Source: an uncultured Actinomycetes bacterium (GTDB lineage: Bacteria > Actinomycetota > Acidimicrobiia > IMCC26256 > JAGPDB01). Taken from it: DNA of 40,352 nt. The stretch is taken from the NCBI GenBank assembly GCA_937872965.1, contig CALMUU010000130.1, positions 1 to 40,352 on the forward strand, in the 5' to 3' direction. The notes beneath the pieces were generated by a model. It had not been told where the DNA came from and did no database searches. It saw nothing but the letters and a program-made list of their open reading frames with translations. Every line of letters begins with the position of its first letter. The first letter of the stretch is position 1. Positions 4,596-39,495 of the stretch are shown here, in pieces. Made by a program: the position numbers and the translations under genes.

Positions 4596-5999
4596 ATGAA
4601 TATCGATCCCCAACTAATAAGTGAATCCTTGGATTATGCATCGAAAAAAGGTGCTTCATTTGCCGAAGCTTTTTGTGAACAGACCAGTACTGCTGCCACA
4701 TCGCTTGACGAAAAACGTATTGATTCGAGAACTACAGGCCTGAGCAAAGGCGTAGGTATTCGTGTTGTCAACAATTCTCGTGTGGGGTATGCCTATACGA
4801 GCACATTTACAACTGAGGGTCTGAGGGTCGCCGTGGATGCCGCATGTGCATCAGCGGGTGTCGGAGATGCCATATCTGCATCGGGCAAAGGTGTGGATGC
4901 ATCACTATTCGTGGACGTCAATAATCGGCAAGGATTTGATGCTCAAGAGTTTCGCGATCCCGCAACAATAACGGCAGAACGACTGCGAGAGATTGATGAT
5001 GTTGCACGTAGTTATCATGCCTCCATTGCTCAAGCATCAGCAACAATTGCTCAAAGTCAACGTGAAGTTCTCATTATGAATACTGCCGGAGTCAATGTTT
5101 CTGATTCGCAAACGCGTACTCGTTGCGTTGTTCAAACAATTGCAAAAAATTCTGATGGAATCCAAAGTGCACACGAAGCGCCAGGAAGAAGTATGGGGGC
5201 ACAGTATTTCGACATCTTTTCGGTCGATAACATCGCGCGTATCGCAGCCCAGCGTGCTGTGACTCTTCTTGATGCGCGACCAGCACCTAGTGGAAACCTC
5301 ACGGTGATTCTGAAAAAGGGTGCTGGTGGAGTTCTTTTCCATGAGGCTTGTGGCCATGGTCTCGAAGCTGACCACATTGACAAATCTCAGAGTGTTTTTG
5401 CTGGCAAGGTAGGGAAAAAAGTTGCTTCCCCTTTAGTGACGCTCGTCGACGACGGAACGATGGGTGATGAATGGGGGACATATCGATTTGATGACGAGGG
5501 AAATCCTGCACAAAAAAATACATTGATCAAAGATGGTGTTTTGAACGACTATATGTGGGATATTTTGCGTTCCACCAAGCTGGGCCATGGCGTTTCGGGC
5601 AACGGCCGTCGTGAGACATATGAATATCTTCCTATGGTTCGCATGACCAATACGTATCTTGAACCTGGATCAATGAGTGTTGACGACATCATTTCCTCTA
5701 CCGATTATGGAATATATTGTGTGGCTCTTGGCGGTGGGCAAGTAGATACGGTGACGGGTGAATATGTATTTGGAATTACCGAAGCGTACATGGTAGAAAA
5801 CGGAGTCATTACCTATCCCATTCGGGGTGCAACTCTCATTGGAAATGGTTTACAAACCATGCTTGATATCGACATGGTTGCAAACGATTTTGATACATGG
5901 ACAGGGACGTGTGGCAAGAATGGCCAGGGAGTCCCTGTGTCTTCGGGTCAACCGACATTGCGTGTTGCGAAGATGACTGTGGGAGGAACATCCACATGA
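4596..5999 (+). CDS. tldD: TldD-type metalloprotease subunit
   Basis: A 467-aa protein of the PmbA/TldD family. The zinc motif HExxxH is present (His249, Glu250, His254 in LFHEACGHGLEADH), as is the C-terminal GTCGKNGQG with the third ligand Cys at ~439. In the known system TldD and TldE form a heterodimer that threads unfolded peptides to the TldD active site, maturing peptides such as microcins or degrading antitoxins. The stop overlaps the TldE start by four bases (ATGA), typical of translational coupling. No precursor peptide gene is visible nearby, so a housekeeping role is likely. Length and motifs are complete. Confidence 0.95.
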   Translation: MNIDPQLISESLDYASKKGASFAEAFCEQTSTAATSLDEKRIDSRTTGLSKGVGIRVVNNSRVGYAYTSTFTTEGLRVAVDAACASAGVGDAISASGKGVDASLFVDVNNRQGFDAQEFRDPATITAERLREIDDVARSYHASIAQASATIAQSQREVLIMNTAGVNVSDSQTRTRCVVQTIAKNSDGIQSAHEAPGRSMGAQYFDIFSVDNIARIAAQRAVTLLDARPAPSGNLTVILKKGAGGVLFHEACGHGLEADHIDKSQSVFAGKVGKKVASPLVTLVDDGTMGDEWGTYRFDDEGNPAQKNTLIKDGVLNDYMWDILRSTKLGHGVSGNGRRETYEYLPMVRMTNTYLEPGSMSVDDIISSTDYGIYCVALGGGQVDTVTGEYVFGITEAYMVENGVITYPIRGATLIGNGLQTMLDIDMVANDFDTWTGTCGKNGQGVPVSSGQPTLRVAKMTVGGTST

Positions 6000-7378
6000 G
6001 TTCAACAGCGCTGAAAAATATGCGTGACACGACAATGTTGCAAGAAGTAGCGCAACGTATTGCCGCACAAGCACAAGGAAACGAAGAAATTGAAGTTTAC
6101 GTTTCTCAAGGCGGTGATGTGGAAGTCACTGTTTACAGAGGCGAAGTAGAAAACATGACGACCGCCAATTCCACTGCTGTGGGAATTCGTGTTATTAACG
6201 ATCATCGTGAAGGAAGTGCTTGGGCAGAATCGCTGGATGAAGGTATTCTTCAGCAGACACTTAGCTTTGCGCGTGAGAACGCTTCGATTGCTGAACCTGA
6301 TGAGTTTGCGACGCTCGTCAAACCATCAGATATTGATGATGTCGAACCTGTTGTTCGCGACGGATGGGATGATTCGATCTTTGCTCTCTCGCTGGAAGAC
6401 AAGATTGCGCTTGCTCTAGAACTTGATCACAAAGCAAGCTCCTTTGACGAACGCATTAAAGATGTTCCCTCTGCCGATTATGAAGACGGATGGGGACACA
6501 GCGTCGTTGCAAACTCCCATGGAATTATGGTGACAAATTCATCGACTTCTGCAAGTTTGTCGGCATCTGTCATGCTGGGAGACGATGAACAGCTTGAATC
6601 AAGTGGATTTTCTTTTGGACGAGGAACAACAAATCTCAATATCGATGAAGTTATCTCAATGGCATTCTCCAGGGGACTTCGTTTGCTGGGAGGGACACAA
6701 CCCATTAGTGAAGCATTGCCTGTTATTTTAGATCCTCTTGTTGCTACACAATTTTTTGGAATTATTGCAGGCATGATGTCGGGAGGCGCCGTTGCAAAAG
6801 GTCGAGCCCTTCTTGCTGATCGTTTGGGCGACACAATTGGCCACTCGAACTTAACACTTATTGACGACCCTACACATGAAAAGGCCTTTTCGTCAGCAAC
6901 ATACGATGCAGAAGGAATGCCCACACGGAGAAATATCTTTATTGAGAATGGTGTGCTGCAACAGTTCGCTCACACCATGTATTCATCTCGGCGCTTAAAG
7001 ATGAAGCCCAATGCTTGTGCACGTCGGGGCGGTGTTGCGTCACGACCTGGAGCGGGTATGCGTGCTCTCTACGCACAAACCACCGGTGAAAGTGTTGAAG
7101 AAATCTTTGAGCGTGTAGGCGAAGCCGTGTATGTACAACATTTTCTTGGTGTTCACTCAGGGGTGAACGCGCTCTCGGGAGATTTTTCAGTGGGCGCGCA
7201 AGGCGTGTGGATCCGGGATGGTCATATGGCCGAAGCATTTAAGGAAGCAACGATTGCATCTGACCTGTTGACAATGTTGTCCCGTACAAGTGCTGTGGCA
7301 AACGATACATGGTGGTTGCCTGGTTCTGTTGTGGGCAACACAGTGTTAATTGACGAGATGGTGATGACCGGGAAGTGA
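5996..7378 (+). CDS. tldE: TldE/PmbA-type metalloprotease partner subunit
   Basis: A 460-aa PmbA/TldE homologue. It shares the TldD fold (GGDVEVTVYRGEVENM, then TAVGIRVINDHREGSAW) but lacks the HExxxH motif: the corresponding region reads VATQFFGIIAGMMSGGAVAKG, as expected for the non-catalytic subunit. The conserved end GVWIRDGHMAEAFKEATIAS and TWWLPGSVVGN is present. The ATG overlaps the TldD stop. A longer in-frame extension back to 5897 is discarded because it lies inside tldD and is not conserved. The stop TGA is itself the base of a 14-bp hairpin that begins a repeat cluster. Confidence 0.93.
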   Translation: MSSTALKNMRDTTMLQEVAQRIAAQAQGNEEIEVYVSQGGDVEVTVYRGEVENMTTANSTAVGIRVINDHREGSAWAESLDEGILQQTLSFARENASIAEPDEFATLVKPSDIDDVEPVVRDGWDDSIFALSLEDKIALALELDHKASSFDERIKDVPSADYEDGWGHSVVANSHGIMVTNSSTSASLSASVMLGDDEQLESSGFSFGRGTTNLNIDEVISMAFSRGLRLLGGTQPISEALPVILDPLVATQFFGIIAGMMSGGAVAKGRALLADRLGDTIGHSNLTLIDDPTHEKAFSSATYDAEGMPTRRNIFIENGVLQQFAHTMYSSRRLKMKPNACARRGGVASRPGAGMRALYAQTTGESVEEIFERVGEAVYVQHFLGVHSGVNALSGDFSVGAQGVWIRDGHMAEAFKEATIASDLLTMLSRTSAVANDTWWLPGSVVGNTVLIDEMVMTGK

Positions 7379-7406
7379 TTTTCCAGGGTGGAACCCTGGA
7401 AAATCA
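7376..7406. repeat. 14-bp hairpin starting at the tldE stop codon
   Basis: TGATTTTCCAGGGT and its exact inverse around a GGA loop. The first three bases are the tldE stop codon. The adjoining downstream repeat begins inside the second arm (ATCATCCTGAG). Same architecture as the hairpin at 542-574. Confidence 0.75.
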
Positions 7407-7526
7407 TCCTGAGCGAGCCAGGAGCGAAGCGACTAAGCGAGTCGAAGGATCTCGCCAAAGACACTCCGAACGTAAGCTCATCCTTCGCTCCGCGAAGATC
7501 CTTAGGGCTAAAGCCCTCAGGATGAC
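7404..7526. repeat. Dispersed GTCAT-type intergenic repeat, copy B
   Basis: In reverse orientation it reads GTCATCCTGAGGGC ... GGATCTTCGCGGAGC ... GGCTCGCTCAGGATG, matching copy A (both contain CGCTTAGTCGC and CTCCTGGCTC). A nested hairpin, ATCCTTAGGGCT / AGCCCTCAGGAT, lies at its right end. It fills the space between convergent tldE and uppP. Confidence 0.8.
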
Positions 7527-7552
7527 ATTTAAGGGTTTCACCCTAAAATGTC
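7524..7552. repeat. 13-bp hairpin ending in the uppP stop codon
   Basis: GACATTTAAGGGT pairs with ACCCTAAAATGTC (one mismatch) around a TTC loop. The last two bases lie in the uppP stop codon (7551-7553, minus strand). Together with the hairpin at 7376 it caps repeat B at both ends. Confidence 0.7.
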
Positions 7553-8369
7553 AGTTAACAAACAGCCACAAAAAGATTCCAAGACCCGCAGCAACACGGT
7601 AGATCACAAATCCGGTGAACGATCGTGTGCGAACAATTTTGAGTAATCCGTAAACGGCAATCCATCCTGTAACTGCAGAAACAATGACACCGACGATCAT
7701 GGGAATAACTAATGATGAAGGAATTCCCTCGCCAGCAATCGTTTTTGTTCCAGTGAAAAGGGCTGCGCCAGCAACAATGGGAATGAGCATCAAAAAACTT
7801 AATCGTGCAGATGATTCGCGGGAAAAACCGCGGAGACGAAGTGCCGTCATTGTGATTCCGCTTCGGCTCACCCCCGGTTGCAAAGCAAGGGCCTGACTCG
7901 CTCCCGCGACGACAGCATCTTTTATACTAAAGCTCGTGTCGTTGCGATCTCCTTGAATGCGATCGCAGACAAACAATAGCAATCCAAAAATAATAAGCAT
8001 GCTCGCAATGAGTGCAGGCTTACCCAAATGTTCGGAAATAGTTTCTTCCAATAATGCACCTAACAAAGCGCCGGGAATGGATGTGACGACAAGTAACAAT
8101 CCAAGCTTGGCGTAGTCATCCATTTTCCGCGTGCGCAATCCGTTCCAGAGAGATAAAACAATACGACGAACGTCTTTATTGAGATAAGCAACTGCTCCAA
8201 TAAGAGTTCCGGCATGAAGTGCGACATCGAATGTTTTTTCTACACTGGGCGATAATTCTTCCCAGCCCAACAGCTGTGGAACTACTGCTAAGTGTCCGCT
8301 GGATGAAATCGGAAGAAATTCTGTGAGACCTTGAATGAGCCCAAGGATGATTGCATGGATAATGGGCAT
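7551..8369 (-). CDS. uppP: Undecaprenyl-diphosphatase (BacA family)
   Basis: A 272-aa polytopic membrane enzyme that dephosphorylates undecaprenyl pyrophosphate, recycling the lipid carrier for peptidoglycan and other wall polymers. The two family signatures are intact: GLTEFLPISSSGHL near residues 14-27 (glutamate-rich catalytic motif) and PGVSRSGITMTALRLRG in the second half, with about eight hydrophobic helices. Length matches the family (~270). The gene follows the CpaB-like SAF protein on the same strand with a gap of nine bases, so the two are likely co-transcribed. Confidence 0.96.
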   Translation of the reverse strand: MPIIHAIILGLIQGLTEFLPISSSGHLAVVPQLLGWEELSPSVEKTFDVALHAGTLIGAVAYLNKDVRRIVLSLWNGLRTRKMDDYAKLGLLLVVTSIPGALLGALLEETISEHLGKPALIASMLIIFGLLLFVCDRIQGDRNDTSFSIKDAVVAGASQALALQPGVSRSGITMTALRLRGFSRESSARLSFLMLIPIVAGAALFTGTKTIAGEGIPSSLVIPMIVGVIVSAVTGWIAVYGLLKIVRTRSFTGFVIYRVAAGLGIFLWLFVN

Positions 8370-34976: not shown

Positions 34977-35396
34977 TTAAATTCCGTTGTCGTTGAGGTT
35001 TGAGCTATCCAAAGTATTCGATGAAATGTCACTCGACAAATCTTTATCAAAGGATGTAAGTGCGTCATCAATTTCATCTGCCACTGCATTAGCTTCAGAG
35101 TTGTTTGTACCAGGTGTTGTAGTGGCTGTTGTGGTGTTCGGGCGAGTGTTGATGGCAACATTGCGTTGTGAACCAGCAGAATTGTCGGATGATTGCGAGC
35201 CAAGTGAGAGCCCAAAAGCAACGACAAGAACCGACGCGGCGATGCCCAAAAGTATATAGAGCTTTTTCTTTTTACCAAACTCTCCATGAGAGACGTTCGA
35301 TCCGTGCTCGATCTTGTCCATGACGCGATCTGTAAAGTCTGATGTTGGTTCGTGTTCCATTCTTGCTTCTCCTATCATGTCCTCAAAATTGCCCAT
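34977..35396 (-). CDS. Putative membrane anti-sigma factor
   Basis: A 139-aa single-pass membrane protein. The cytoplasmic N-terminus of about 45 residues (FEDMIGEARMEHEPTSDFTD RVMDKIE) resembles the sigma-binding part of small anti-sigma factors. There is no HxxxCxxC zinc motif. One helix follows (LYILLGIAASVLVVAFGLSL), then a low-complexity Ser/Thr/Asn exterior. The start overlaps the end of the sigma gene by 14 bases, the usual arrangement for a sigma/anti-sigma pair. The role is inferred from this context. Confidence 0.7.
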   Translation of the reverse strand: MGNFEDMIGEARMEHEPTSDFTDRVMDKIEHGSNVSHGEFGKKKKLYILLGIAASVLVVAFGLSLGSQSSDNSAGSQRNVAINTRPNTTTATTTPGTNNSEANAVADEIDDALTSFDKDLSSDISSNTLDSSNLNDNGI

Positions 35397-35922
35397 AAAG
35401 CTGCTCCTCTAATTGTTGCTTGCCGCGAGATAGCCAAGTGCGTGCGGTGCCGATAGGGCATCCCACAATGGTGGCGATCTCTTCATAACTTTTGTTTTCC
35501 CAATAGAAAAGGTTGATGACTTGTTGATAATCAGGCTTTAGTGTGGCGATTGCGTCGCGAACATTTTGTGCCCGTGCGCTTTGTGTGAATGCTTCGTCGG
35601 GAGAGAGCTCGCTCGCTCGTCCGTCTGGGACAACACGCAGGATTCGTGAATTTTTCTTAAAGTGGTCTTTTGCAATGTTTGATGCGATTGCGTAAAGCCA
35701 CGTAGAAAACGAATATGCAGAATTATACGTAGAAAGCTTTCGGAACGCTTGTACAAATGCATCTTGAGCTAGGTCCTCTGCGATGGTTGAATCTCGAGTC
35801 ATGTTATAGAGATAGTTGATAAGACCGCGGTGATAGCGTTCCACAACGACACGGTACTGAGCCTTATCTCCGCTCAGTACCGCATTGATTGCCGTCACGT
35901 CGTCTGTTGTTTCCCCATTCAT
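35383..35922 (-). CDS. ECF-type RNA polymerase sigma factor
   Basis: A 179-aa sigma-70 family protein with only regions 2 and 4. Region 2 is seen in LAQDAFVQAFRKLSTY and FSTWLYAIASNIAKDHFKK, and region 4 in LKPDYQQVINLFYWENKSYEEI, then ATIVGCPIGTARTWLSRGKQ (helix-turn-helix). Such sigma factors respond to envelope stress and are held by a membrane anti-sigma factor, which follows here. It lies 17 bases after the secreted helical protein, so all three form one operon. The signal is unknown. Confidence 0.92.
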   Translation of the reverse strand: MNGETTDDVTAINAVLSGDKAQYRVVVERYHRGLINYLYNMTRDSTIAEDLAQDAFVQAFRKLSTYNSAYSFSTWLYAIASNIAKDHFKKNSRILRVVPDGRASELSPDEAFTQSARAQNVRDAIATLKPDYQQVINLFYWENKSYEEIATIVGCPIGTARTWLSRGKQQLEEQLYGQF

Positions 35923-35939: not shown

Positions 35940-36515
35940 TCAGAGAGCTCGAAGTTGATCGCGAATACTTTTAAGTTCGGGAACAATTGTGTTGACCCAA
36001 TACTGGCGTCGAGATAATTTCACTTCTTTAATCTCTTCCACTTTTGTCTTGCACTCTTGGAAGGCCGCGCGACCCCCTTCACGATCACCCTCACAGACAA
36101 GTGAAACTGCTGAATCAATGAGTGCTGCGATTTCTGTTCGTTTGTCTTTTATCTCGTCGGTGAATTCTTCCCAGATCTCGTGGTATGTTTCAAGATCGCT
36201 TGTATCAACTCCGTTTGCTTTTGCTTTCTCAACGAGCGCAGCGAGCTTGGCATCCTGCTTTTCGTAGAGTGATTCTGTTGATGCAGCACGTTCTTGAATC
36301 GTTGCCTTTTGAGTGGCGACGCGTGTCGTGATGCGTTCGCAAGCCTCAGCTTGGCGCTGTTCTGTCGCTGCTTGGCGTTGTTCGATGCGCGTTTGTCGCG
36401 AAGTCGAAGTCGGGGTTGTTGTGGTCGTTGATGATGTCTCGGCAAAGGCCGGGGCAGCACTGGTGACAAGAAGTGCGGCGCATAGGGATGCGCAACTAAG
36501 TAGTTTGAACTTCAT
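35940..36515 (-). CDS. Secreted helical protein upstream of the ECF sigma factor
   Basis: A 191-aa protein with signal peptide (residues 1-25, cleavage near AFAE), then a Thr/Ser stretch and long charged helices (RIEQRQAATEQRQAEACERI, EKQDAKLAALVEKAKANGVD), probably a coiled coil. Three cysteines are present in the mature part. It starts with ATG after GGAGG and is the first gene of the sigma/anti-sigma operon, so it may be the sensed or regulated envelope component. I do not recognise the family. Confidence 0.75.
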   Translation of the reverse strand: MKFKLLSCASLCAALLVTSAAPAFAETSSTTTTTPTSTSRQTRIEQRQAATEQRQAEACERITTRVATQKATIQERAASTESLYEKQDAKLAALVEKAKANGVDTSDLETYHEIWEEFTDEIKDKRTEIAALIDSAVSLVCEGDREGGRAAFQECKTKVEEIKEVKLSRRQYWVNTIVPELKSIRDQLRAL

Positions 36516-36561
36516 GGGTCCTCCATTCGTTGTGGCATAGGTTATAGGGAGGTAAGAGCCA

Positions 36562-36617
36562 AAAAGTTTCACTTTTCCAGAAAAATGAACTGGACTGGTG
36601 AAATAAAGTGCACTTTA
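36562..36617. promoter_or_regulatory. Two palindromes upstream of the sigma operon
   Basis: AAAAGT-ttc-ACTTTT (36562-36576) and the perfect 14-base palindrome TAAAGTGCACTTTA (36604-36617) share the AAAGT/ACTTT core. They lie in the 132-base gap before the secreted helical protein, so they could be operators for the sigma operon. Confidence 0.4.
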
Positions 36618-36647: not shown

Positions 36648-38750
36648 TTAGAGCGCACTGTAAATGGCGCGCACACGAGAACTGGGCGTCGTGAGGTTTT
36701 GTGAAAAGAGGAGGATGCTGCTGGCGCTGTCGTAGGCAAGACCCCAAGGAGATGCCAGGAGTGCTCCAAGTGAGGGACCGTTGTCTCCGGTGTTCCCCGA
36801 TACTCCTGTACCTGCAAAGTTCGCAACCGCTGTTCCGGTTTGTTTGACAATACAACGACGACCCAGCTGTGTCACATAGATGCTTCCCGTTGATGTCGCA
36901 ATGACGTCAGATGGATTCGAAAGGTTAATTGCTGTTGCCAGACCTGAGAATGCGCAGGTGTTATTCGGTGCTACATTGGTTCCTCCGCCCATCACTTGCG
37001 AAATTTGGCCGGTAGCAACTGCGAGTTTTCGGATACAACTACGACCTGTGTCGGCAATGAGGAGATCTCCTGCTGCATCAAAAGAGATTCCGCGAGGGCC
37101 AGACATCGAGACACCTGTTCCTGCACCTGCGAATGTGCAAGCAGTCGTCGCACCCGTGCCTGCAATCAGTGAAATGACTCCAGACGAGAGAAGAACCCTT
37201 CGTATTCTGTTATTGGAAGAATCGGCGATGTAGAGATGGGTGCCATTCACGGCCAAGCCTAAAGGTGCACTGACCCGTGCTGCCGAGGCAAGGCCACCAT
37301 CACCATTTGAGCCAGCAGTGCCGTTGCCCACATACCGGGCTATCTGTCCTGTCGCTACTGTGATTTTGCGAATACAATTGCCTGTAGATTCTGCAATGTA
37401 GATGTCACCTGCAGAATCAACGGTGACATCGCTTGGCCCGCTCAGAATTGCCGCAGTTGCAGCACCGGCAAAGGTGCACCCGGCGGTGGCTCCTCCTCCT
37501 GCGATGGTGGTAATAATTCCCGTGCTTTTGGTGACCTTGCGGATTCTGTTATTTGTAAAATCGGCGATGTAAAGATTTCCACTACTGTCTGTTGAAATGC
37601 CTCGGGGCAGGTTCAGTGTGGCTGACGTTGCCGCACCGGTATCTCCTGTTGCCCCAACCGTTCCAGTACCGGCGTAGGCGTCAATCGAAAATTGGCAGCG
37701 ATCACTGCGGATTTCTGAAGTATTCGAACTTGTCCAACTGGTACCTGTGCGCGTAGAACGAATTGCATAGAACCATTCATTAGCGACAGGGGAGGGCGCG
37801 TCTGTTCCTATGGTTGCGGGATTCGCAAAGTTTGTTTGCGTGCCGTACGGTCCACCTGTGACAGTTCCGCGTTGGAGTTGGGTATTGTTTTGTGAACCTG
37901 AACCAGCTAGCGACCAATTAAATGAAAGCGTGGAGAGCGATGTGGTCCACGAGCAACCGATGTAGCTTACGTTTTGAACATTTGATGCTGCAACGACGGG
38001 GTTACTTGTCGATGTTGTTGAGGAAGCCGTAAAGGCAGCATAAGCCCCCGAATAAAGAACGAGCACTGCCACCGCCAAGAAAAAAGCACTAGCTACAGTC
38101 GCTCGTGACGAGAGTGATTTTGTAAGTATACTTTGTCGCTTTTTAAAAACAACTTGTTTTAGACGAGAGGCTTTAGCTTTATTTTGACCCCTCGCAACCA
38201 GGATGCCCGCGAAGATCATGACGGCAAGTTCGATGACGATCGTGATTTCACGACGTGACCCGACAGAAAAAAAAGTAAAGAGGCTTCCCGCTTTAGGAAT
38301 TGATTCAACAACGATCCATGCCCTGTTTCCCGTTATGAAAAAATTCCATTTGTCGGGAGAGGAATTTGCATCCCCCTTTGTCTTAAAGAGAGGCTTTTTG
38401 CCATCACTTATTTCTATAATTCGGTGAGCAATAATTTGTTTTCCAGAGGTTGGTTCTTGAAAGATCATGACATCGCCGACCTTAAGATCAGCGACATTTT
38501 TTTCAGTTGCAATCGCCAATGAATTTTTTGGCATTTCAGGAGCCATTGATCCACTCAAGATAGAAACGGCTCGATATTTTCCTGTGATGAGACTCAGAGC
38601 AATGACCAGGAAGAGAAGAACGACCGCTATGAAAATACCATTGCCAAGAAATTTAAGAATGCGGACGAAAGGAGGTGAGGGAGTTTCAGATGTGTCCGTA
38701 TCCTTGGACGTTGATTGGGTTTTATGAACGTTATTTTTTCTGCTAACCAT
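36648..38750 (-). CDS. SipW-type signal peptidase I fused to an NHL beta-propeller
   Basis: A 700-aa fusion. The first ~190 residues are an S26B signal peptidase (archaeal/ER/SipW type): membrane helix ~38-56, catalytic Ser68 in SILSGSMAPEM, VGDVMIFQ, His109 in IIAHRIIEI (His in place of the bacterial Lys), GDANSSPDKW, and a second helix ~169-187. After a basic stretch comes a third hydrophobic segment (218-234) followed by SGAYAAFTASSTTSTSNPVV, which closely resembles a SipW-dependent signal region. Then come a ~100-residue domain of fibronectin III type and about six NHL repeats (e.g. GISTDSSGNLYIADFTNNRI) making a propeller to the end. It is downstream of the TasA-like gene. Confidence 0.88.
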   Translation of the reverse strand: MVSRKNNVHKTQSTSKDTDTSETPSPPFVRILKFLGNGIFIAVVLLFLVIALSLITGKYRAVSILSGSMAPEMPKNSLAIATEKNVADLKVGDVMIFQEPTSGKQIIAHRIIEISDGKKPLFKTKGDANSSPDKWNFFITGNRAWIVVESIPKAGSLFTFFSVGSRREITIVIELAVMIFAGILVARGQNKAKASRLKQVVFKKRQSILTKSLSSRATVASAFFLAVAVLVLYSGAYAAFTASSTTSTSNPVVAASNVQNVSYIGCSWTTSLSTLSFNWSLAGSGSQNNTQLQRGTVTGGPYGTQTNFANPATIGTDAPSPVANEWFYAIRSTRTGTSWTSSNTSEIRSDRCQFSIDAYAGTGTVGATGDTGAATSATLNLPRGISTDSSGNLYIADFTNNRIRKVTKSTGIITTIAGGGATAGCTFAGAATAAILSGPSDVTVDSAGDIYIAESTGNCIRKITVATGQIARYVGNGTAGSNGDGGLASAARVSAPLGLAVNGTHLYIADSSNNRIRRVLLSSGVISLIAGTGATTACTFAGAGTGVSMSGPRGISFDAAGDLLIADTGRSCIRKLAVATGQISQVMGGGTNVAPNNTCAFSGLATAINLSNPSDVIATSTGSIYVTQLGRRCIVKQTGTAVANFAGTGVSGNTGDNGPSLGALLASPWGLAYDSASSILLFSQNLTTPSSRVRAIYSAL

Positions 38751-38772: not shown

Positions 38773-38802
38773 CTCTACCGGCAGAATGATCTGCCGGTAG
38801 AG
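38773..38802 (-). terminator. Perfect 12-bp hairpin between the TasA-like gene and the signal peptidase fusion
   Basis: CTCTACCGGCAG / CTGCCGGTAGAG around a 6-nt loop. It begins about 25 bases after the TasA-like stop and is followed by a weak AT tract, then the next ribosome site. It could act as a partial terminator or mRNA stabiliser, giving more structural protein than peptidase. Confidence 0.65.
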
Positions 38803-38826: not shown

Positions 38827-39495
38827 TTACTGGTTAGTTCCTGCGCGTTGTTGTGATGCGAGTTCGTACTCAATTTGTGATGTGAGGTTTTGGAAGGTGT
38901 TTCCAGCGCCCACTGGGAAAGACAACGTAACTCTGAGGAAGTTGTCTGTTCCTGAGGTTCCCACAATGTTGTTAAGGGTCACAGCGGATTGGATGACAGG
39001 GACTGATGTCAATACTGACGAGGTTGTGCCTCCACATGTGTATGTGTATGCGGGTGCGACGCCGGCTTCTGTCCAAGCAACGGAGCATTTGTCGATTGCC
39101 ATTTGTAGACCGTTGGTTGTGTCGGTGTTCAAAAGTGATGATTGACATGTTCCCAAGCAACCCGTTGCACGACTAGTGAGACGGATAGGTGTTGTTGCGT
39201 TCAAACATGAGGAACCTGAGTTCTTTGCGTTGACTGTTCGTTGCATTGTGTCGCCGGGAACAATGTTTGACGCACCTAAGGTGAGTCGGTTGTTCGCCGC
39301 GTTTGTTCCAATTCCTGCAAGAGTCATTGTACAAGTGGTCGTTATAGGGTTAGAGGCAGATGTGTCGGCCGTCCCAGTAAACGTTGAAAATGCACCAAAG
39401 CTCATAAGGCTTGAGCTCACTGCAATGAGACATATTGCGAATGTCATTTTTGCAAGGAGCGAGGTCTTTTTGATCGCTCGTATTGATTTTCTCAT
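38827..39495 (-). CDS. TasA/CalY-like secreted protein with SipW-type signal
   Basis: A 222-aa exported protein. The N-terminus is a basic region, a hydrophobic stretch (MTFAICLIAVSSSLMSFGAF) and then STFTGTADTSASNPIT, the layout of SipW-dependent signal peptides of TasA, camelysin and related proteins. The mature part is Thr/Ser/Gly-rich, beta-type, with several Cys pairs (e.g. CLGTC, CSVAW ... YTC). TasA forms biofilm fibres in Bacillus; here the role is inferred from signal and context. The ATG is preceded by GAAAGAGG. It shares the promoter region with the divergent lipoprotein and precedes the peptidase fusion. Confidence 0.75.
   Translation of the reverse strand: MRKSIRAIKKTSLLAKMTFAICLIAVSSSLMSFGAFSTFTGTADTSASNPITTTCTMTLAGIGTNAANNRLTLGASNIVPGDTMQRTVNAKNSGSSCLNATTPIRLTSRATGCLGTCQSSLLNTDTTNGLQMAIDKCSVAWTEAGVAPAYTYTCGGTTSSVLTSVPVIQSAVTLNNIVGTSGTDNFLRVTLSFPVGAGNTFQNLTSQIEYELASQQRAGTNQ

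Follow-up and report, generated by a model that had tools for sequence, protein, structure and literature searches.

The protein encoded at 36648–38750 (minus strand) is probably a SipW-type signal peptidase that is made as one chain with its own substrate, which its S26B activity would cut (probability about 0.7, judged from sequence and predicted structure). The window, which is the whole stretch of DNA that we analysed, is a contig of 40,352 nucleotides from an uncultured Actinomycetes bacterium. Signal peptidases are generally taken to act in trans, on other proteins. On the other hand, polyprotein proteases cut themselves out, and purified LepB self-cleaves. In those cases, as in this fusion, the protease and the cleavage site are in one chain, but the predicted site in the fusion is a cellular secretion signal and its cargo is interchangeable. 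The gene is one intact open reading frame of 700 amino acids, and from N to C terminus the protein consists of an S26B peptidase, a third hydrophobic segment, a beta-type linker, and a six-bladed NHL propeller. The features are:

36648..38750, minus strand: fusion of an S26B peptidase, a putative internal SipW-type signal peptide, and an NHL propeller, 700 amino acids (sequence, Pfam, TIGR02228, AlphaFold)
38193..38666, minus strand: S26B/SipW-type peptidase module, residues 29–186 (TIGR02228, alignment of 30 fusions, confident fold)
38103..38192, minus strand: basic, presumably cytoplasmic loop, residues 187–216, the equivalent of an n-region (charge count)
38046..38102, minus strand: third hydrophobic segment, residues 217–235, the putative h-region of the internal signal peptide (hydrophobicity, AlphaFold)
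38031..38045, minus strand: predicted cleavage site A236-Y237-A238↓A239-F240 (profile, alignments, motif; site chemistry from PMC10269814)
37989..38036, minus strand: predicted new N-terminus AFTASSTTSTSNPVVA, residues 239–254, which resembles that of the TasA-like neighbour
37695..37988, minus strand: beta-type linker domain, residues 255–352, with conserved C266, W268, W279, W339, and C352 (low model confidence)
36651..37691, minus strand: six-bladed NHL propeller, residues 354–700 (Pfam NHL, AlphaFold, Foldseek)
38827..39495, minus strand: TasA/camelysin-type protein, probably a substrate in trans and a subunit of fibres (Pfam, family profile, fold)
38773..38802, minus strand: intergenic 13-bp stem-loop, flanked by the TasA-like gene and the fusion gene (fold z of −5.9)

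A sequence-only reading of the window had described the enzyme half as an S26B/SipW-like peptidase with Ser68 and His109, and the family models agree. Residues 40–135 match TIGR02228 (sigpep_I_arch) with 74.7 bits (cut-off 51.85), and the catalytic dyad is Ser-His rather than Ser-Lys, with Ser68 in SGSMAP and His109 in AHR. The module also contains TM1 (about 37–57), Asp133, and TM2 (about 168–186). Across 30 aligned fusions, the serine is present in 29, and the histidine and Asp133 are present in all 30. The score against NF046067, the equivalog model for Bacillus SipW, is 54.1 bits, which is below the cut-off of 190: the enzyme is of the same class as SipW and is not SipW proper. As part of our main explanation, the enzyme half is probably an active SipW-type S26B Ser-His peptidase that cleaves SipW-type signals.

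Behind the second of its three hydrophobic segments (about 37–57, 167–187, and 215–240), the fusion has the parts expected of a signal peptide. The loop between TM2 and TM3 contains 10 lysines or arginines and no aspartate or glutamate. The third segment is followed by FTASSTTSTSNPV at residues 240–252, as the sequence-only reading had noticed, and it ends in G-A-Y-A↓A-F-T, where the adjoining TasA-like protein has G-A-F-S↓T-F-T. Thus, the predicted site has tyrosine at P2 and phenylalanine at P2′. Its SipW-type features are small residues at P3 and P1, the aromatic P2′, a start that is rich in threonine and serine, and an asparagine near +9. TasA has tryptophan at P2 and phenylalanine at P2′, and LepB handles such sites poorly (PMC10269814). 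The pattern G[AT][FYW][AS]xF[TSN], which was defined post hoc from the fusion and TasA-like sites, has two occurrences in the window, one in the fusion and one in the TasA-like protein, and none in 162,619 residues of unrelated loci. The TIGR04088 model for SipW-dependent signal peptides (threshold 19 bits) does not match the window's segment and gives only 9.1 bits for another fusion (L061), but it is a short model that fails to detect even the signal at the N-terminus of the TasA-like neighbour.

We also scored these segments with a profile that was trained only on 36 N-terminal signal peptides, all from genes beside unfused S26B genes. As controls, none of 141 TM1 ends (maximum 2.4 bits) and none of 77 TM2 ends (maximum 2.1 bits) reached 8 bits, and all 12 third segments of the DUF5305-type fusions described below scored −3.1 bits or less. 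Among the 38 remaining third segments, 30 (including the window's) scored above every one of the 218 control TM ends, and 23 reached at least 8 bits. The window's site scored 5.9, above the maximum of 2.4 for the controls; this is a modest score, as shuffles of the window's own segment reach 5.9 in 16% of cases. A comparison of the internal segment with SipW signal peptides had been proposed earlier, and on this independent profile it comes out in favour of the resemblance. In the 30 sites that could be aligned, P1 is always alanine, glycine, or serine (30/30), P3 is always small (30/30), and P2′ is always phenylalanine, tyrosine, or leucine (30/30).

The strongest evidence that such internal segments are signal peptides comes from passengers that occur both free and fused. 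The fused passenger of L061 (genome G016) and a free secreted protein of L066 (genome G031, from the same genus) share 63% identity across 286 aligned columns (E = 1e-119); for the fused passenger of L136 and a free protein of L132, identity is 49% across 443 columns (E = 8e-144). On the free protein, both alignments start at residue 2 or 4 (2 in the first pair), so that they span its signal peptide. In G031 the gene order is S26B, TasA-like, free passenger; in G016 it is S26B, TasA-like, and then a second S26B fused to the passenger. As the internal segments align with true N-terminal signal peptides, a SipW-type substrate has gained or lost the enzyme module at its N-terminal end. A genus in which one passenger exists both fused and free also offers paired natural experiments. 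We found no free version of the window's NHL passenger among the regions surveyed, so for this passenger the argument is that its relatives conserve the site. Overall, homologues, profile, and free/fused pairs support the proposal, first made from the sequence of the window, of a SipW-type signal between enzyme and passenger, and they point to a SipW-type signal-peptide ancestry for the third segment.

To place the fusion among its relatives, we surveyed S26B genes in the order, class, and phylum (Actinomycetota); 60 regions gave 141 S26B-type proteins by HMM search. About 50 of the 141 have C-terminal extensions of at least 190 amino acids, and about 30 are fusions with a SipW-type internal site and various passengers, found across Actinomycetota. 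The passengers include NHL (the window, L211, L174, and the frame-broken L212), LamG (L075, L082, L221, and L189), RCC1 (L080 and L186), WD40/PQQ with fn3 (L231), a glycine-rich domain (L229), CBM96 (L123), and another propeller (L106). So, the S26B-NHL fusion that the sequence-only reading reported is real and has its own signal, but it is not specific to NHL: it is one instance of a recurrent architecture. A tree of 125 S26B domains implies at least 13 changes between fused and unfused, and well-supported branches force at least 4 of them. The fused state was gained or lost repeatedly, and the tree is compatible with either direction. The site motif might persist as a legacy of fusion rather than through use, but this recurrence argues against it.

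The four S26B-NHL proteins (the window's, L211, L212, and L174) all retain A236, F240, and T241. Homologues without the motif, which would have counted against an internal signal, were looked for; the motif is kept in 4/4 S26B-NHL proteins and in about 26 fusions with other passengers. L211 is a full-length relative, with a single alignment over residues 45–685 of the window's protein (32%, E = 9e-88), and it has TasA-like genes on either side. In L212 (genome G010, 5899–8365), a frame change separates the S26B domain from the NHL passenger, and the frame shifts again close to where the propeller ends. These frame changes at two places are in a long-contig assembly and could be either assembly errors or a real split, and we count L212 as weak support only.

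The six NHL repeats that had been read from the sequence are evident as a match to PF01436 (E = 9e-28) and as six blades in the AlphaFold model (strand sets at 382–418, 439–474, 496–532, 552–588, 613–646, and 668–698, plus a strand at 354–360). The pLDDT of the propeller is mostly above 90, and its Foldseek matches are the NHL propellers of a teneurin-like protein and of NHLRC2. In contrast to the propeller, the linker did not keep the Fn3-like label that it had been given: residues 255–352 have no Pfam match in the window, the best fn3 match is in the homologue L211 (E = 0.19), and residues 203–350 have low pLDDT and no confident placement in a model for which only three rows aligned over that stretch. 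The linker is nevertheless conserved, with two cysteines (C266 and C352).

We propose that the fusion works as follows. TM1 and TM2 would put the catalytic domain outside the membrane, and the loop (187–216) and the third segment (217–235) would then serve as n- and h-regions that thread the propeller out. The expected topology, which we infer from the family and from the charge of the loop, is in-out, out-in, in-out. The site A236-Y237-A238↓A239-F240 would lie at the outer face of the membrane, on the same side as the active site, and would be cut by S26B activity, supplied either by the molecule itself or by another copy. After the cut, the peptidase would stay in the membrane with three segments and could act in trans on the TasA-like subunit, and the propeller would be free, with the new N-terminus AFTASSTTSTSNP. 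If so, this recurrent chain of an enzyme plus its own substrate offers a natural system for cis processing.

A related possibility is that another molecule always does the cutting (a second copy of the fusion or a free S26B) and that the fusion serves stoichiometry or co-targeting. A free S26B does adjoin the fusion in two genomes (G016 and G026). In the window's own genome, however, the fusion is the only S26B gene, and a single LepB, which has a Ser-Lys dyad, is the only further signal peptidase found. So, exclusive action in trans would require another copy of the fusion. Also, as LepB is poor on TasA-like sites, the best-suited enzyme is the one in the same chain. Exclusive trans cleavage is a sub-case of our main explanation, so their probabilities overlap, and cis and trans look the same in sequence; we consider it a credible minority option.

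The gene upstream of the fusion (38827–39495, minus strand) had been described as TasA-like with a similar site, and several comparisons agree. Its product matches the Pfam M73/camelysin family PF12389 with 23.7 bits (cut-off 22.5, E = 5e-5), as do 12 of 13 relatives. The profile of its family finds the TasA fibre structure 8aur (E = 1.5e-4), which is also the top Foldseek match of its predicted fold and the only one below 1e-3 (E = 6e-5, for a model of moderate confidence). Its site is A35-F36-S37↓T38-F39-T40, of which F39 and T40 hardly vary across the family. This protein is probably a trans substrate of the fusion's peptidase and a fibre subunit. The TasA-like family is present in 7 of the 61 genomes searched, with an S26B gene beside it in 6 of the 7. 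In the other genome (G042), the TasA-like gene (L256, 2839–3471) has a SipW-type signal and no S26B was found in that genome, so such substrates may sometimes be handled otherwise.

The TasA-like neighbour suggests a role in fibre assembly, which the sequence-only reading had not considered. In Bacillus, SipW frees TapA, whose N-terminus then supplies the donor strand with which TasA fibres begin (PMC9674648, PMC10151520). The genes tapA and sipW overlap, which the authors of that work took as a hint of association (PMC9674648, PMC10151520). The window resembles the tapA-sipW-tasA operon of Bacillus subtilis in that a Ser-His S26B gene lies beside a TasA-type gene in a small operon and the sites are aromatic at P2 and P2′. 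In Bacillus, though, each of the three (the peptidase, TapA, and TasA) is a chain of its own (PMC9674648, PMC10151520), whereas here the peptidase and one substrate are one chain.

As the N-terminus that would be released resembles the start of the TasA-like protein, the passenger may act like TapA, the low-copy partner of TasA that SipW frees with an N-terminal donor strand. The passenger would then be present at low copy number, would start or cap TasA-like fibres, to which it would lend a donor strand, and would bring a binding domain with it. This would be a functional analogy: we detected no sequence relation to TapA, and the passenger here is an NHL propeller fused to a peptidase. We regard the starter role as tentative and, on balance, somewhat unlikely. 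It would give a handle on how TasA-type fibres may start in Actinomycetota, and in the open literature that we searched we found no description of fibre-starting machinery of this kind in that phylum. A still broader proposal seems doubtful when taken whole, namely that a widespread class of Actinomycetota signal peptidases processes itself, each S26B enzyme cutting a LepB-resistant passenger in cis, and that the passenger starts or caps TasA-like fibres with a swappable binding head (NHL, LamG, RCC1, CBM96, and others). If it were true, fibre initiation would be tied to the presence of the peptidase.

Alternatively, the passenger could be released for a purpose of its own, for example as a secreted binding protein, and have nothing to do with TasA-like fibres. 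The shared N-terminus would then reflect recognition by the peptidase, and the fusion would stop a LepB-resistant signal from outrunning its peptidase and jamming Sec. The passengers are indeed very diverse, and the TasA signal blocks Sec in a host that lacks SipW (PMC10269814); a fusion would offer a way round such jamming of the channel by LepB-resistant signals. However, the fusions are closely linked to, and co-occur with, TasA-like genes, and the pairwise resemblance of the N-termini extends beyond the cleavage site. In particular, the mature N-termini of fused passengers score higher against their own TasA-like neighbours than against those of other loci (27.4 vs. 17.1, permutation P = 1e-4, n = 15, window not included). 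This resemblance may stem from a starter role or from what the peptidase recognises, or it may arise because whole loci share ancestry or composition. An independent purpose for the passenger is thus a reasonable alternative, at somewhat less than even odds.

The stem-loop between the two genes (38773–38802) is a perfect 13-bp hairpin (z = −5.9) that lacks a clear T-run. It is a possible attenuator or processing site and could set the ratio of the two products, with high TasA-like protein and low peptidase. Directly downstream of the fusion, 35940–36572 encodes an exported, charged, probably coiled-coil protein of 210 amino acids, with no family match above cut-off. Farther downstream and on the same strand (34977–35922) are a gene for an ECF-type sigma factor and then a small anti-sigma-like protein with a single TM segment. 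A library of defence systems gave no match in the window. At the protein level, the contig's neighbouring genes are 60–78% identical to those of two species of the genus, which places the contig in that genus. Two other species of the genus (G001 and G002) both lack the pair of fusion and TasA-like genes, so the system is accessory and dispensable.

A quite different explanation is that the third segment is a plain anchor and that the uncleaved fusion displays its propeller, for example to bind a ligand or to hold the enzyme at the wall. The topology fits this equally well, and third segments without a SipW-type site do exist in S26B proteins (the 12 DUF5305-type fusions). But the same group shows that third segments of this family can do without such a site, and 30 segments keep a chemistry at P1, P3, and P2′ that goes beyond the needs of an anchor. 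Such segments also descend from, or gave rise to, the signal peptides of free secreted proteins. We therefore consider a plain anchor improbable. Finally, it is very improbable that assembly or gene calling merged two genes through a missing stop codon or a wrong frame, and we rejected artefact and contamination despite the fragmented assembly (264 contigs, 5.3% contamination) and the frame-broken homologue in G010, because there are about 30 intact fusions in different genomes, L211 and L174 are two more full-length S26B-NHL relatives, and the contig's neighbouring genes match the genus.

The sequence-only reading knew of no described system of this kind, and we too found no description of S26B-substrate fusions in the open literature searched, so the novelty is provisional.

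The survey also turned up other S26B architectures. Twelve S26B fusions have TM3 and a DUF5305-like domain (L102, L194, L197, L199, L200, L203, L205, L206, L219, L225, L226, and L227; Pfam matches were checked in L197 and L200). Like the window's protein, they combine an S26B enzyme, a third hydrophobic segment, and an extracellular domain, but they have no SipW-type site at the end of TM3 and form nearly one separate clade. In four proteins of 650–800 amino acids (L072, L092, L182, and L191), the S26B domain is at the C-terminal end and there are further membrane segments. In two others (L179, 6612–9605, and L198, 5821–8916), S26B is followed by many membrane segments and about 800 residues.
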